A stretch of 64,000 nucleotides of DNA from Saccharothrix deserti (GTDB taxonomy: Bacteria; Actinomycetota; Actinomycetes; Mycobacteriales; Pseudonocardiaceae): NCBI RefSeq assembly GCF_009769385.1, contig NZ_VKAB01000008.1, forward strand, positions 310,001 to 374,000. The letters run 5' to 3'. The notes under the pieces are model-generated. The model ran no database searches. It was not told the origin of the DNA and was given only the letters and a program-made list of their open reading frames with translations. The position numbers were made by a program, and so were the translations under genes. This document shows, in pieces, positions 30,241-34,211 of this stretch (the first letter of the stretch is position 1; every line of letters starts with the position of its first letter).

Positions 30241-30344
30241 CGAATGTCCCACTCGCGGGCTCCGAACGCCGGACCCGCGCAACCTGAACGTAGAACTCAC
30301 CGGTCCTGAGCGTTCGACTCACGCCGCTTGAGCGTTCGACTCAC
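30241..30344 (-). repeat. 22-bp tandem repeat array A (five units)
   Basis: Read on the minus strand, 16-bp cores start at 30344, 30322, 30300, 30278 and 30256, exactly 22 bp apart, separated by variable 6-bp spacers. The first two cores are both GTGAGTCGAACGCTCA, the third is GTGAGTTCTACGTTCA, and the last two are degenerate. The same unit forms array B at 34063-34211 in the opposite orientation. The array fills the gap between map and the DUF1707 gene. Confidence 0.85.
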
Positions 30345-30375
30345 GCGACCTGTGGCTGAAACCCGAGGGGATCGG

Positions 30376-31149
30376 TCAGGACTCGAGGGCGGTGAGGACC
30401 CAGGGGCCGTCGTCGGTGATGGCCACCGAGTGCTCCCAGTGGGCGGCGCGCGAGCCGTCCGCCGTGATGACGGTCCAGCCGTCGTCCAGCTCGACCGTGC
30501 GCTCGGTGCCCAGCGTGAGCATCGGCTCGATGGCGATCGCCATGCCGGCCTTCAGGCGCGGCCCCTTGCCGGGCTTGCCGTAGTTCGGCAGGAACGGGTC
30601 CATGTGCATCTTCGTGCCGATGCCGTGGCCGCCGTAGCCCTCCACGATGCCGTACTCGACGCCGTGCTCCTCGCCGGCCAGGATCGTGGCCGACTCGATC
30701 GCGAACGAGATGTCGCTCAACCGCCCACCGGGCACCGCCGCGTCGATGCCCGCGAGCATCGACGCACGGGTCGCGTCGGACAGCTTCAGCTCCGCCTCGG
30801 TCACGTCACCGACCGCCAGCGTGATGGCCGAGTCGCCGTGCCAGCCGTCCAGGATGGCGCCGCAGTCGATCGAGATCAGGTCACCCTGCGCCAGCACCTG
30901 CGTGCGGTTGGGGATGCCGTGGACGACCTGCTCGTTCACCGACGCGCAGATCGACGCCGGGAACCCGTGGTAGCCCTTGAACGACGGGATGGCGCCGGCG
31001 TCGCGGATGGTCTGCTCGGCCAGCTCGTCCAGCTCGGCGGTGCTGACCCCGGCCTTGGTGTGCGAGGCCAGCAGCGCCAACGTCCGCGCCACGACCAGCC
31101 CGGCGGCCCTCATGGCCTCGAGCTGACCGCGGCTCTTGATCTCGATCAT
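30376..31149 (-). CDS. map: Methionine aminopeptidase, type I
   Basis: Removes the initiator methionine from nascent proteins. The pita-bread fold is shown by the five metal ligands: Asp in SIDCGAI, Asp in GDSAIT, His in GHGIGTK, Glu in AIEPMLTLG, and Glu in WEHSVAI, plus the substrate His in [10 protein letters not shown] prefer the ATG at 31149 ([14 protein letters not shown]), which matches the usual family start; a GTG at 31203 that overlaps the adk stop (GTGA) would add 18 residues and would couple the two genes. Confidence 0.96.
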
Positions 31150-31199
31150 GCGATCCCGACCGGGAACGACCCGACGCAACGCATCGACAAGTCCACCGC

Positions 31200-31751
31200 T
31201 CACTTCAGGGCGCGCAACGCGCGGAGGGCGCGCTCGCTGATCTCTTCGACGTCACCGACGGCGTCGATGGTCACGACGATGTCGGCGTAGTAGTCGAGCA
31301 GCGGCGCGGTCTCCGTCCGGTACACCTGCTGGCGGTGCCGGATCACGTCTTCCTTGTCGTCCGTGCGACCGCGGGCGAGCAACCGCTCGACCACGACGTC
31401 CTCGTCGATCCGGAATTCCAGCACCGCGTCCAACGCGTGGCCGTCGGCGGCCAGCATCCGACTCAGCACACCCGCCTGGGCGGTGTTGCGCGGGAAGCCG
31501 TCGAGCAGGAAGCCGTTGACGGCGTCCCCCTGCGCGAGCCGGGCCCGCACCATCTCGTTGGTGACCTCGTCCGGCACCAGCTCACCGGCGTCCAGGTACT
31601 CCTGCACTTCTTTGCCCAGATCGGTCTGCTGGCTGATGTGGGCGCGGAAGAGGTCCCCGGTGGAGATGTGCGGCACGCCGAGCTTGTTGCTGAGGATTTC
31701 GGCCTGGGTGCCCTTGCCCGCTCCGGGCGGGCCGACGAGAACGAGTCGCAC
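31200..31751 (-). CDS. adk: Adenylate kinase
   Basis: Interconverts AMP, ADP and ATP. The 183-residue protein has the P-loop GPPGAGKGT (8-16), the AMP-binding segment [10 protein letters not shown], the DGFPRN motif, and a short LID region without zinc ligands, which is the short actinobacterial type. The GTG start overlaps the secY stop codon by one base, so it is coupled to secY. Confidence 0.97.
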
Positions 31752-33061
31752 TAGCGGAGGAACCCTTCGTAGTTGCGCTGCATGAGCTGGCTCTCGATCT
31801 GCTTAACGGTGTCGAGGCCGACACCGACCATGATCAGCACCGCGGTGCCGCCGAACGGGAAGTTCTGGTTCTGGCCCTGACCGGTCAGGTCGAGGAACAG
31901 GTTCGGCAGGATGGCGACGATGCCCAGGTAGAGCGAGCCCGGCAGCGTGATCCGCCCCAACACGAAGCGGAGGTACTCGGCGGTGGGACGGCCCGGCCGG
32001 ATGCCCGGGATGAACCCACCGAACTTCTTCATCTCGTCCGCACGCTCGTCCGGGTTGAACGTGATGCCGACGTAGAAGTACGTGAAGAAGACGATCAGCA
32101 GGAAGTAGAGCGCGATGTGCACCGGGCTGGACTGGCTCACCAGGTGCGTCGCGACGAAGCTCTCCCACCAGTTCGGCGTGGACCCGTCGGTGGACTGGGT
32201 CAGCCGCGAGATCAGGTCGGGCAGGTACAGCAGCGACGAGGCGAAGATGACCGGGATGACACCGGCCTGGTTCACCTTGAGCGGCAGGTAGGTCGACGTG
32301 CCGCCGTACATCCGGCGACCGATCATGCGCTTGGCGTACTGGACCGGGATGCGGCGCTGGGCCTGCTCCACGTAGATGACGCTGGCGATGATCAGCAGAG
32401 CCGCGACGCAGACCAGGAAGAAGGTCAGGCCACCGCGGTCGAGGATGATCTTGCCCTCGATCGGGATGCGGGCCGCGATGCCGGTGAAGATCAGCAGCGA
32501 CATGCCGTTGCCGATCCCCTTCTCGGTGATGATCTCACCGAGCCACATGATCACGCTGGTGCCCGCGGTCATCACGACCACGAGGACGACCAGGTTGAAG
32601 ATGCTCTCGTCCGGGATGACGGGGACGTCACAGCCCTGGAACAGCTGGTCGCGCACGGCCAGGGCGATGATGCCCGTGGACTGGAGGACCGCCAGCGCGA
32701 TGGTCAGGTAGCGGGTGTACTGGGTCAGCTTGCCCTGACCCGCCTGCCCTTCCTTCTTCAGCTGCTCGAACCGCGGGATCACCACGGTGAGCAACTGGAC
32801 GATGATGCTCGCGGTGATGTAAGGCATGATGCCGAGCGCGAAGATCGACAAGTTCAGCAGCGCGCCGCCGCTGAACAGGTTGATCAGGGAGTAGATCCCC
32901 TGCTGGTCAACCGACTCGACGCACTGTTTGACGTTCTTGAAGGAGACGCCCGGCGCGGGCATGGTCGCGCCCAACCGGTACACCACGACGATCCCCAGTG
33001 TGAACAGGATCTTCTTGCGTAGGTCCGGCGTCGCGAGAGCCGAGCGGAATGCGCCGAGCAC
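31751..33061 (-). CDS. secY: Preprotein translocase channel subunit SecY
   Basis: The central pore of the Sec translocon, 436 residues with ten membrane helices. The start segment [21 protein letters not shown] and the loops [13 protein letters not shown] and [21 protein letters not shown] (here [15 protein letters not shown]) are characteristic. GTG at 33061 is chosen because GGAGG is 5 bp upstream and the family start aligns; the open frame to 33130 adds only Ala/Pro-rich sequence. Unusually, a LysE gene separates it from rplO, so it has its own leader. Confidence 0.97.
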
Positions 33062-33233
33062 GCGAACCTCCATCAGCGTTGCCGCCCCACTGGGGTCGGC
33101 ATCCTGCGGTGCCGGCTGTGTTGCCGGCACAGTCTTGCGGACATGCCGTCGACCATGTGCCGACGGTGGCGGAAGCGACGGGTAGCCGCGACCGACCCGG
33201 AGGGCATCCGGGTTCAGCCCGCGACTTTAACAG

Positions 33234-33239
33234 CCGCTT
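33234..33239 (-). promoter_or_regulatory. Candidate -10 element of the secY operon
   Basis: TAAAGT on the minus strand (within TGTTAAAGTCG) lies 173 bp upstream of the secY start in the 254-bp gap 33062-33315. A convincing -35 is not visible at 17-18 bp. A promoter is needed here because the upstream ribosomal operon ends at the terminator at 34454. Confidence 0.4.
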
Positions 33240-33315
33240 GGCCGGTAGCCGTAGCCAGTCGCCCTTCACACTTCGTACCTGATCGACTACGGCGGCCGGC
33301 AAGCCGCCGAATGGA

Positions 33316-33912
33316 TCAAGTTCGACTCGTCGCGAGCACACCGGCCATGCTCAGTAGAACAGCTGCGGTGCCCTTGTCCAGCCTGGCTTTGGCGCGCTTG
33401 GTGAGTCCTGCCTTGCGGATGCCCGCGCCCACGGTGACGTAAGCGGTTCCGGCCAGCGCTTCGGCCGCCAGGTAGACCGCGCCGAGGGTGGCGAGCTGGA
33501 GCGGGATGGGGCCGCGGGCGGGGTCGACGAACTGGGGCACGAAGGCGGTGAAGATCAGCAGCGCCTTGGGGTTGGTGATCGCCACCAGGAACTCCTTGCG
33601 CAGCGGAGTGCCCCTCCTGGCTGGGGTTTTGTCGGTTTTCTCGGTCATCAGGATGCGCACGGCGAGGTAGACGAGGTAGGCCACGCCCGCCCACTTGATG
33701 ACGGTCAGGGCGGTGTGGCTGGCGGCCAGGACGGGGCCGAGACCGGCGACGACCGCCGTCACCATGAGGGAGAAGGCCGCAAGACGGCCCAGGAGCGCCG
33801 TAGCGGCCTTGAGGGGGCCGTGGTGGACCGCGTGGTGCATGCCCAGGAGGTTGTTGGCGCCAGGGGTCAACGCGACCAGGACCGAGGCGCCGAAGAAAAC
33901 CGCAAGCCACAT
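33316..33912 (-). CDS. LysE/RhtB-family exporter
   Basis: A 198-residue membrane protein of the LysE superfamily, which exports amino acids or similar small molecules. It shows the N-terminal signature (VALTPGANNLLGMHHAVHHG, the GxxxG-type segment after the first helix), about six helices, and the central ITNPKALLIFTAFVPQFVDP motif. The ATG at 33912 has no strong ribosome-binding site. It lies between rplO and secY, genes that are normally adjacent, and next to a 22-bp repeat array, which suggests later insertion. The substrate cannot be predicted. Confidence 0.85.
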   Translation of the reverse strand: MWLAVFFGASVLVALTPGANNLLGMHHAVHHGPLKAATALLGRLAAFSLMVTAVVAGLGPVLAASHTALTVIKWAGVAYLVYLAVRILMTEKTDKTPARRGTPLRKEFLVAITNPKALLIFTAFVPQFVDPARGPIPLQLATLGAVYLAAEALAGTAYVTVGAGIRKAGLTKRAKARLDKGTAAVLLSMAGVLATSRT

Positions 33913-34062
33913 GCCCGCACGCTAACCCCGCCGCCAATCTCTTTTACGCCCTGCGCGAACGTCCGTCTCACCACCCTCAATCCCCCGCACGCCTGCCGGC
34001 GAGACACCCCACAACAGCCGGCAACCGTCAAAAACCCCCAACCCAAACCCCCCACTTCCCGT

Positions 34063-34211
34063 GCGAGTCGAACCCTCAGAACGCGTGAGTCCTACGTTCG
34101 CGTTCGGTGTGTCCTACGTTCAGAGCGCGTGAGTCCTACGTTCGGGATGCGTGTGTCCTACGTTCAGGACCCCCGAGTTGAACGCTCAGGACGGCGCGAG
34201 TCGCGGGCTCA
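34063..34211 (+). repeat. 22-bp tandem repeat array B (seven units)
   Basis: Cores of 16 bp start at 34063, 34085, 34107, 34129, 34151 and 34173 (exactly 22 bp apart), with a seventh at 34196 (23 bp). Units 2 and 4 are GTGAGTCCTACGTTCG, units 3 and 5 GTGTGTCCTACGTTCA, and the outer ones diverge. Several cores have the dyad GAG-N7-CTC. The array lies in the 596-bp gene-free stretch 33913-34508 between LysE and rplO; the remainder of that stretch holds a DnaA-box-like site, GC-rich short direct repeats (GGGCAGTTGC) and the rplO terminator. Confidence 0.85.

Follow-up and report, generated by a model that had tools for sequence, protein, structure and literature searches.

The window analysed here, a stretch of 64,000 nucleotides of Saccharothrix deserti (contig NZ_VKAB01000008.1; G000:C5:310001-374000) in a genome of 10.83 Mb, contains two intergenic arrays, A and B, of a 16-bp core repeated every 22 bp. 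We find that these arrays belong to a real and widespread class of element, strict in its architecture and evolving in concert, which lies mostly just behind stop codons in the Pseudonocardiaceae. The original prediction, made from the letters of the window, had described five units on the minus strand and seven on the plus strand at a period of 22 bp except for the last step in B; unit-by-unit positions confirm this, the last step being 23 bp (Table 1). It also placed the arrays at the 3' side of ribosomal-superblock genes, near genes that interrupt the usual order. The 3' side of genes is borne out, whereas the superblock and the interrupting genes are nothing peculiar, arrays A and B being ordinary members of a few hundred. 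Allowing ≤2 mismatches, the 16-bp core has 326 matches across the genome, whereas the reversed pattern has 2; the family is thus much larger than the window suggested. On contig C5, 409 kb contain 10 clusters of at least two units, which extrapolates to ~265 arrays per genome.

Architecture and placement at gene ends

Genes were called with a simple codon-usage caller and units with a position weight matrix (PWM) for which the genomes studied here were the training set; counts of context and of arms refer to clusters of at least two units. The 152 clusters comprise an unbiased set of 44 from five contiguous regions in five species and two biased sets, 36 from further pieces of the S. deserti genome picked around known matches and 72 from named loci picked by an exact two-unit match. 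The basic component is an arm, a run of 16 + 6-bp units, usually two to nine of them at 21–22 bp, close to two turns of the helix each, in which the spacers resemble G(G/A)AC(G/C)C. By shape the clusters are single arms (69), facing pairs (60), back-to-back pairs (18) and complex arrangements (5). The arms are polar. A terminal type of unit, in which GTT or ATT replaces GTC at core positions 5–7, comes last in 213 and first in 0 of the 229 arms with at least three units, and makes up 12 of 496 inner units. The junctions are equally regular: the inner units of facing arms are 34–36 bp apart in 45 of 65 cases, and back-to-back arms are spaced by exactly 18 bp in 24 of 25. In a second genome of the genus, G014, an identical 18-bp centre is found at four loci and once more reversed, with near copies at two others. 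At a locus in another genus of the family (L309, genome G065) a long hairpin (GAACAATGAGTTCGCATTTCAGGCAC...) is lodged among the array units and is perhaps a further type of centre.

The clusters of the unbiased set lie in 20 convergent and 24 tandem gaps and in no divergent gap, as compared with 237 convergent, 1224 tandem and 234 divergent among the 1695 background gene pairs. The enrichment in convergent gaps has p = 3e-7, and the depletion in divergent gaps p = 0.003 by share of gene pairs or 5e-6 by share of bases. Position relative to gene ends, which had been proposed as a check, was also tallied for the individual arms: 154 of 242 arm starts follow a stop codon on the same strand, 50 adjoin another arm, 31 face the start of a gene on the opposite strand (the class to which array B belongs) and 7 are at an edge. 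The 154 arms lie very close to the stop, 107 within 9 bp and 124 within 19 bp, with a mode of 3 bp, and in 36 of the 42 facing pairs between convergent genes both stops are ≤20 bp away.

The stop codons themselves differ from those of other genes. Within 20 bp of an array we count 60 TAA, 62 TGA and 3 TAG (n = 125), against 26, 265 and 143, respectively, in convergent genes without arrays (n = 434), an approximately eightfold enrichment of TAA; the pooled p-values overstate independence because orthologous genes recur across species. In S. deserti alone TAA ends 18 of 27 such genes against 58 of 719 others. At 15 further loci in the genus, taken by themselves, TAA accounts for 3 of 10 stops, which is not significant. 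Two cytosines follow the stop (TRACC) in 103 of 129 genes near arrays and in 309 of 1656 other genes, and in 22 of the 129 the stop is the TGA of the unit itself, within GTGAGTC. The dozen bases preceding the first unit are rich in C and poor in G. Given the resemblance of the spacer to G(G/A)AC(G/C)C, one reading is that the final two letters of the stop codon come from the edge of the element; a single case, site 2 in G014, can be read as a gene end remade by the array.

Turnover between species and breadth in the family

We compared arrays across the syntenic region around the ribosomal cluster, ~400 kb in G000 (S. deserti), G014, G003 and G022 and 235 kb in G019. Among its 16 array sites, sites 1, 4, 6, 7, 12, 13 and 15 have units in four or five species, site 6 in S. 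deserti retaining one degenerate unit; the remaining sites are occupied in fewer species, and there are new lineage-specific sites such as site 2 in G014. The sequence of the typical inner unit varies with the species (Table 1). Cores at the same site in different species are 0.743 identical (53 pairs), practically the value for different sites in different species (0.746, 676 pairs), which shows that the sites are inherited and that site-specific memory of the sequence is absent. Identity rises to 0.799 between different sites of the same species (174 pairs) and to 0.844 within an array (43 pairs). Between units it falls from 0.87 at distance 1 to 0.71 at distance 4; the highest likeness is thus between adjacent units, the signature of tandem duplication, and the units nearest the stop are more degenerate. 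The sister pair G007 and G024 shows the same turnover over a shorter span: 3 sites are common among eight plus eight loci, with flanks 94–98% identical and arrays that are unlike in unit number and sequence.

This pattern could arise by gene conversion from one array to another or by the insertion of new copies into existing arrays, and either fits the data equally. That units turn over and are homogenised implies that recombination or conversion is frequent, which falls short of demonstrating the recombination hot spot that had been suggested from the window. The two core versions that the original prediction had set apart belong to a species-wide pool of variants and do not form two classes.

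The search of related genera shows that the element is family-wide. In named stretches the two-unit pattern is confined to Saccharothrix (67 of 67; Pseudonocardiaceae according to NCBI), these stretches evidently overlapping in part with the genome set of the window's own genus. The exact two-unit pattern is found in 15 of 390 genomes of the family, of which 13 belong to the genus. A model built on sequence only, with 60 positions (E 1e-4), matches 78 of the 390 genomes, in 21 of 46 genera, including 16 of 25 in the genus; as searches with this model evaluate a restricted set of candidates in each genome, these counts are lower bounds. In an order-wide sample, at E 1e-6 and with stricter filters, 12 of 397 genomes match and all 12 are in the family, the share of the 397 that lies outside the family not being established. 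The 47 arrays outside the genus are in 25 convergent, 13 tandem and 2 divergent gaps, with 7 at an edge; 16 of 28 nearby stops are TAA, against 9 of 103 in other genes (p = 2e-7), and the step between units is 22 bp in 95 cases and 21 bp in 92. Because the stop-codon and convergent-gap features recur in other genera and were absent from the model, they provide the strongest sign that the association is real.

The two arrays of the window and their neighbourhood

Within the window the PWM finds clusters at A and B and nowhere else, and none when the window is reversed. The nearest unit of array A is 31 bp past the stop of a map-like gene (30376-31203, minus strand), and a cluster at this site is seen only in S. 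deserti among 26 loci from 25 genomes. Array B, a single arm, has on one side the start of a LysE-like gene (33316-33912) and on the other the 3' end of an rplO-like gene (34509-34952), both on the minus strand, and is antisense to both. G014 and G008 have an array of 3 units at this site, and there are diverged arrays nearby in G010 and G021. The core versions CCTACGTTC/TCTACGTTC and CGAACGCTC-like are, as predicted, present in both arrays with small changes. The GAG-N7-CTC dyad, which had been ascribed to many cores, is found in the GAACGCTC version and not in the others.

Table 1 Repeat arrays and other features in and around the window (window positions unless a contig is named), with the typical inner units of the species compared
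Feature	Position	Strand	Details
Array A	30241..30344	-	five units, all steps 22 bp, downstream of map-like gene stop
Array A unit 1	30329..30344	-	GTGAGTCGAACGCTCA
Array A unit 2	30307..30322	-	GTGAGTCGAACGCTCA
Array A unit 3, terminal type	30285..30300	-	GTGAGTTCTACGTTCA
Array A unit 4, degenerate	30263..30278	-	GCGGGTCCGGCGTTCG
Array A unit 5, degenerate	30241..30256	-	GCGAGTGGGACATTCG
Array B	34063..34211	+	seven units, steps 22, 22, 22, 22, 22, 23
Array B unit starts	34063, 34085, 34107, 34129, 34151, 34173, 34196	+	
Array B unit 6, terminal type	34173..34188	+	CCGAGTTGAACGCTCA
Array B unit 7, degenerate	34196..34211	+	GCGAGTCGCGGGCTCA; after the 23-bp step
Perfect hairpin	34455..34489	.	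immediately downstream of rplO-like gene; read by eye
Y1 transposase gene, single in G000	G000:C5:141004-141369		PF01797, E 1.5e-39; no array called beside it
Typical inner unit, G000			GTGTGTCCTACGTTCA
Typical inner unit, G019			GCGTGTCCAACGTTCA
Typical inner unit, G014 and G008			GTGAGTCCTACGTTC(A/G)
Typical inner unit, G003			GCGTGTCCTACGTTCG
Typical inner unit, G022			GAGTGTCGAACGCTCA

The hairpin behind the rplO-like gene is also present in G014, which has the array, and in G003 and G022, which do not, and is probably that gene's own intrinsic terminator. The LysE-like gene, by reading an exporter, splits secY and rplO and so breaks the ribosomal gene order in several, apparently not all, genomes of the genus. 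At the secY-adk-map locus of two species without array A (L043 in G003, L045 in G005) the 3' end of map adjoins a different sequence, GTGTCATCCC-CCGACC..., apparently palindromic and a few hundred bases long, and in L066 a GCCCGYTTGGCAGG-like short tandem repeat fills the slot of array A behind the map-like gene. L066 is one of two divergent adk-map-secY copies in G010 (the other being L054); in the tree each falls with a different species, which suggests a mixed assembly or a duplicated region in that genome. Other short tandem repeats in the window, at 62700-62788 and 49675-49782 (periods 15–30 bp), are dissimilar to arrays A and B.

DNA boundary, RNA hairpin or mobile repeat

Our preferred reading, which we hold tentatively, is that of a DNA-level 3'-end boundary element of the Pseudonocardiaceae, resembling the bacterial interspersed mosaic elements (BIMEs), bound by a putative protein and homogenised within each genome. 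The units would be recognised in register, along one face of the helix, by a sequence-specific protein, and the bound array would form a boundary where transcription units end. There it would stop or release polymerases, provide a place for topological relief, or do both. The BIMEs of Escherichia coli are thought to act in such ways. Copies would spread within the genome, lengthening and shortening through tandem duplication, and homogenisation between loci would leave inherited sites with a species-specific unit sequence. What we have demonstrated is the layout of the arrays, their location and polarity, their concerted change, their breadth in the family and the absence of covariation between facing arms; the protein, its boundary function and the mechanism of copying and homogenising we infer.

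Besides the placement, polarity and turnover described above, two observations are in favour of this reading. Selection on an RNA hairpin would be expected to leave covariation between the arms. The cores of facing arms show none: they match at 0.867, against 0.865 expected from the other arrays of the species (204 pairs), and their spacers are less complementary than expected (0.597 against 0.644, 143 pairs, z = −3.6), the test being made on rank groups of at least four arrays. We reject selection for a long hairpin, or correction by foldback, on this ground. In addition, the centres of the main Saccharothrix clade that have terminal units on both sides (60 centres) measure 24, 32–36, 44–45, 55–57 and 78 bp, groups that were drawn post hoc, and their lengths advance by about one helical turn, the Rayleigh R being 0.83 for a period of 11 bp and 0.36 for one of 22 bp (13 distinct values); this and all the other phasing statistics rest on hand-compiled lists of lengths that include near-duplicate values. 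The absence of covariation and the helical steps of the main clade lean towards recognition of the DNA in helical register. The array of DNA-binding protein proposed in the original prediction fits both these one-turn steps and the 21–22-bp phasing of the units.

A number of observations weigh against the boundary reading. Facing pairs and back-to-back pairs fold strongly as RNA, with z of ~−14 (20 of 58 tested) and ~−10 (18 of 18 tested), respectively (samples of 20/58, 18/18, 20/50 and 20/50, ≤260 bp each, with 25 approximate shuffles apiece), and the cores of back-to-back arms match weakly in excess of expectation (z = 2.4, 49 pairs). Outside the genus phasing is weak (R = 0.48 at 10.5 bp and 0.77 at 10 bp, nine values), and G007/G024 show none (R = 0.14); with all centres pooled it reaches 0.48 at 10.5 bp against 0.30 at 22 bp; as it is clear in the main clade only, we reject it as a universal rule. 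Divergent gaps are occupied by 3 clusters, all single arms, in the two biased sets and by 2 of the 47 arrays outside the genus. Some genera have the 21-bp period, and outside the genus the terminal unit is placed more loosely, last in 39 and first in 9 of 56 arms, a count biased by the inclusion of that unit in the model with which the loci were found. The identity between units climbs again at distances of 5–7 (17 pairs). Single arms make up 69 of the 152 clusters and some, such as array B, are antisense to both neighbours, and a bidirectional boundary has no need of such arms. Finally, arrays are missing from most convergent gene pairs, and the element is therefore not essential.

An RNA-level element, in which the transcribed paired arms form long hairpins that serve as bidirectional terminators free of a U-tract or as 3'-end protectors and substrates of RNase III, is in our judgement rather unlikely, though not far behind the boundary reading. 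The strong folding of the paired arms is what it predicts, and the filling of the gap between convergent stops in 36 of 42 facing pairs means that both transcripts probably end there; the C-rich, G-poor sequence ahead of the first unit and the freedom of divergent gaps from arrays in the unbiased set are also in its favour. The lack of covariation and the poorly complementary spacers speak against it, as do the single arms, which are so large a share of the clusters and fold as RNA no better than shuffled sequence (z ~−0.6, 20 of 50 tested), a structured single arm being rejected on this count. The T-run of an intrinsic terminator (TTTT ≤30 bp after the hairpin) is found on just 4 of 156 array sides, and at sites 8 and 10 the array stands beside an ordinary terminator-like hairpin. 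Covariance models from Rfam gave zero matches in window positions 29900-34700 at E 0.1.

We are equally doubtful of a short mobile element, selfish or neutral, that turns over in the manner of a satellite, has no function, spreads by some route of transposition or conversion and persists just behind stops because it does least harm there. The identical 18-bp centre of G014, at four loci and once reversed, does look dispersed and lends some substance to the mobile short element suggested from the window. New lineage-specific sites such as site 2 in G014, and the signature of tandem duplication with more degenerate units next to the stop, are likewise in keeping with it, and its depletion from promoter gaps is as purifying selection would produce. 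On the other hand, the strict polarity with a terminal unit and the fixed junction spacings look maintained, and sites are kept in up to five species despite complete turnover of their sequence. No clear target-site duplication was seen by eye in comparing empty and filled sites 2, 8 and 10, which are few cases. The genes between facing arms also look ordinary. Among 13 neighbouring cluster pairs eight are facing, three of these being one locus in three species that encodes proC-like, thioesterase-like and proline-dehydrogenase-like genes; the other interiors hold what we take, by eye from the first 60 residues, to be ordinary metabolic, helicase or regulator genes, and a facing pair near 74300 on G000:C5 encloses a 932-bp gap with zero called genes. 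An autonomous element between facing arms, of the kind that shares its terminal inverted repeats with a miniature inverted-repeat transposable element (MITE), appears unlikely from these eight pairs at the sampled loci. A plasmid or phage origin of array B found no match in either collection at E 0.001, and a clustered regularly interspaced short palindromic repeat (CRISPR) array is ruled out by spacers of 5–6 bp, variable repeats and hundreds of loci, cas genes not having been searched for.

A variant of the boundary reading, which we regard as unlikely, is that protein arrays mark the ends of transcription units throughout the family, with one fast-evolving DNA-binding protein reading the 21–22-bp units in register and shifting its specificity in each species together with all its hundreds of sites, which would keep their places as their sequence changes.

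Membership of the repetitive extragenic palindrome (REP) and BIME class proper, mobilised by a Y1 transposase of the REP-associated tyrosine transposase (RAYT) type, is largely refuted and highly improbable: the 3'-end intergenic position, mixed orientations and hundreds of copies are those of REPs as described in one study (PMC3733652), and the element is present in four of the five Y1-bearing genomes of the genus, but the hairpin unit, the constant tag and the transposase were each looked for and are lacking or do not correspond. The unit is a 16-bp core with a weak dyad in one version in place of a hairpin palindrome of 20–40 bp. A constant GTAG/CGTC tag is missing, GTAG (on the reverse strand) occurring only in CTAC-type units and being absent from the GAACG-type that dominates G022. 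A gene of the Y1 family (PF01797) is found in 5 of the 25 genomes of the genus: 4 of these (G000, G014, G019, G018) are among the 16 that match the model and 1 (G023) is among the 9 that do not. It was not found in the element-rich G008, G020, G022 and G003, G008 being the richest for the CTACG core. The presence of the transposase does not track the element, and we reject it as the driver.

The likeness to the REPs, BIMEs and REPINs (REP doublets) of E. coli and Pseudomonas lies in hundreds of dispersed extragenic copies at 3' ends, in alternating orientations and lineage-specific families, and in convergent or tandem gaps, rarely divergent ones (none among our 44 unbiased clusters). The element differs in its 21–22-bp tandem unit with a terminal unit, where a REP is a 20–40-bp hairpin, in having neither a constant GTAG/CGTC tag nor a correlated RAYT, in abutting the stop codon, and in that orthologous sites hold different, species-specific units. 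The position of REPs between convergent and tandem genes and the RAYTs are described in PMC3733652, and REP surveys and RAYTs are covered in PMC12306157 and PMC2817692. The original prediction knew of no described repeat of this kind, and in our searches of the open-licence PMC literature no publication was recognised as describing these repeats.

Three further systems share some features with the element. The BOX elements of Streptococcus pneumoniae are modular (A-Bn-C), with variable tandem middle modules and distinct end modules, an organisation like that of our arms; their modules are ~45–59 bp each and lack the mirrored arrangement at stop codons. The DNA uptake sequences of Neisseria are 10–12-bp words whose inverted pairs behind genes double as terminators. 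They resemble the present units in being short, species-specific and paired just behind genes, and differ in being single words and not phased arrays; an uptake system is not implied here. Plasmid iterons are direct repeats of ~22 bp, two helical turns, bound by protein in register, as may be the case for the arrays, and occupy one locus by a rep gene, where the arrays occupy hundreds of chromosomal loci.

The arrays pose three testable questions: how short repeats dispersed over a bacterial genome are kept uniform, by what means the end of transcription is marked between convergent genes in actinomycetes of high GC content, and whether the evolution of a DNA-binding protein is coupled to that of its sites throughout the genome. 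The Pseudonocardiaceae include major producers of antibiotics, and in practice the arrays may be of use as ready-made boundary parts or as strain markers.

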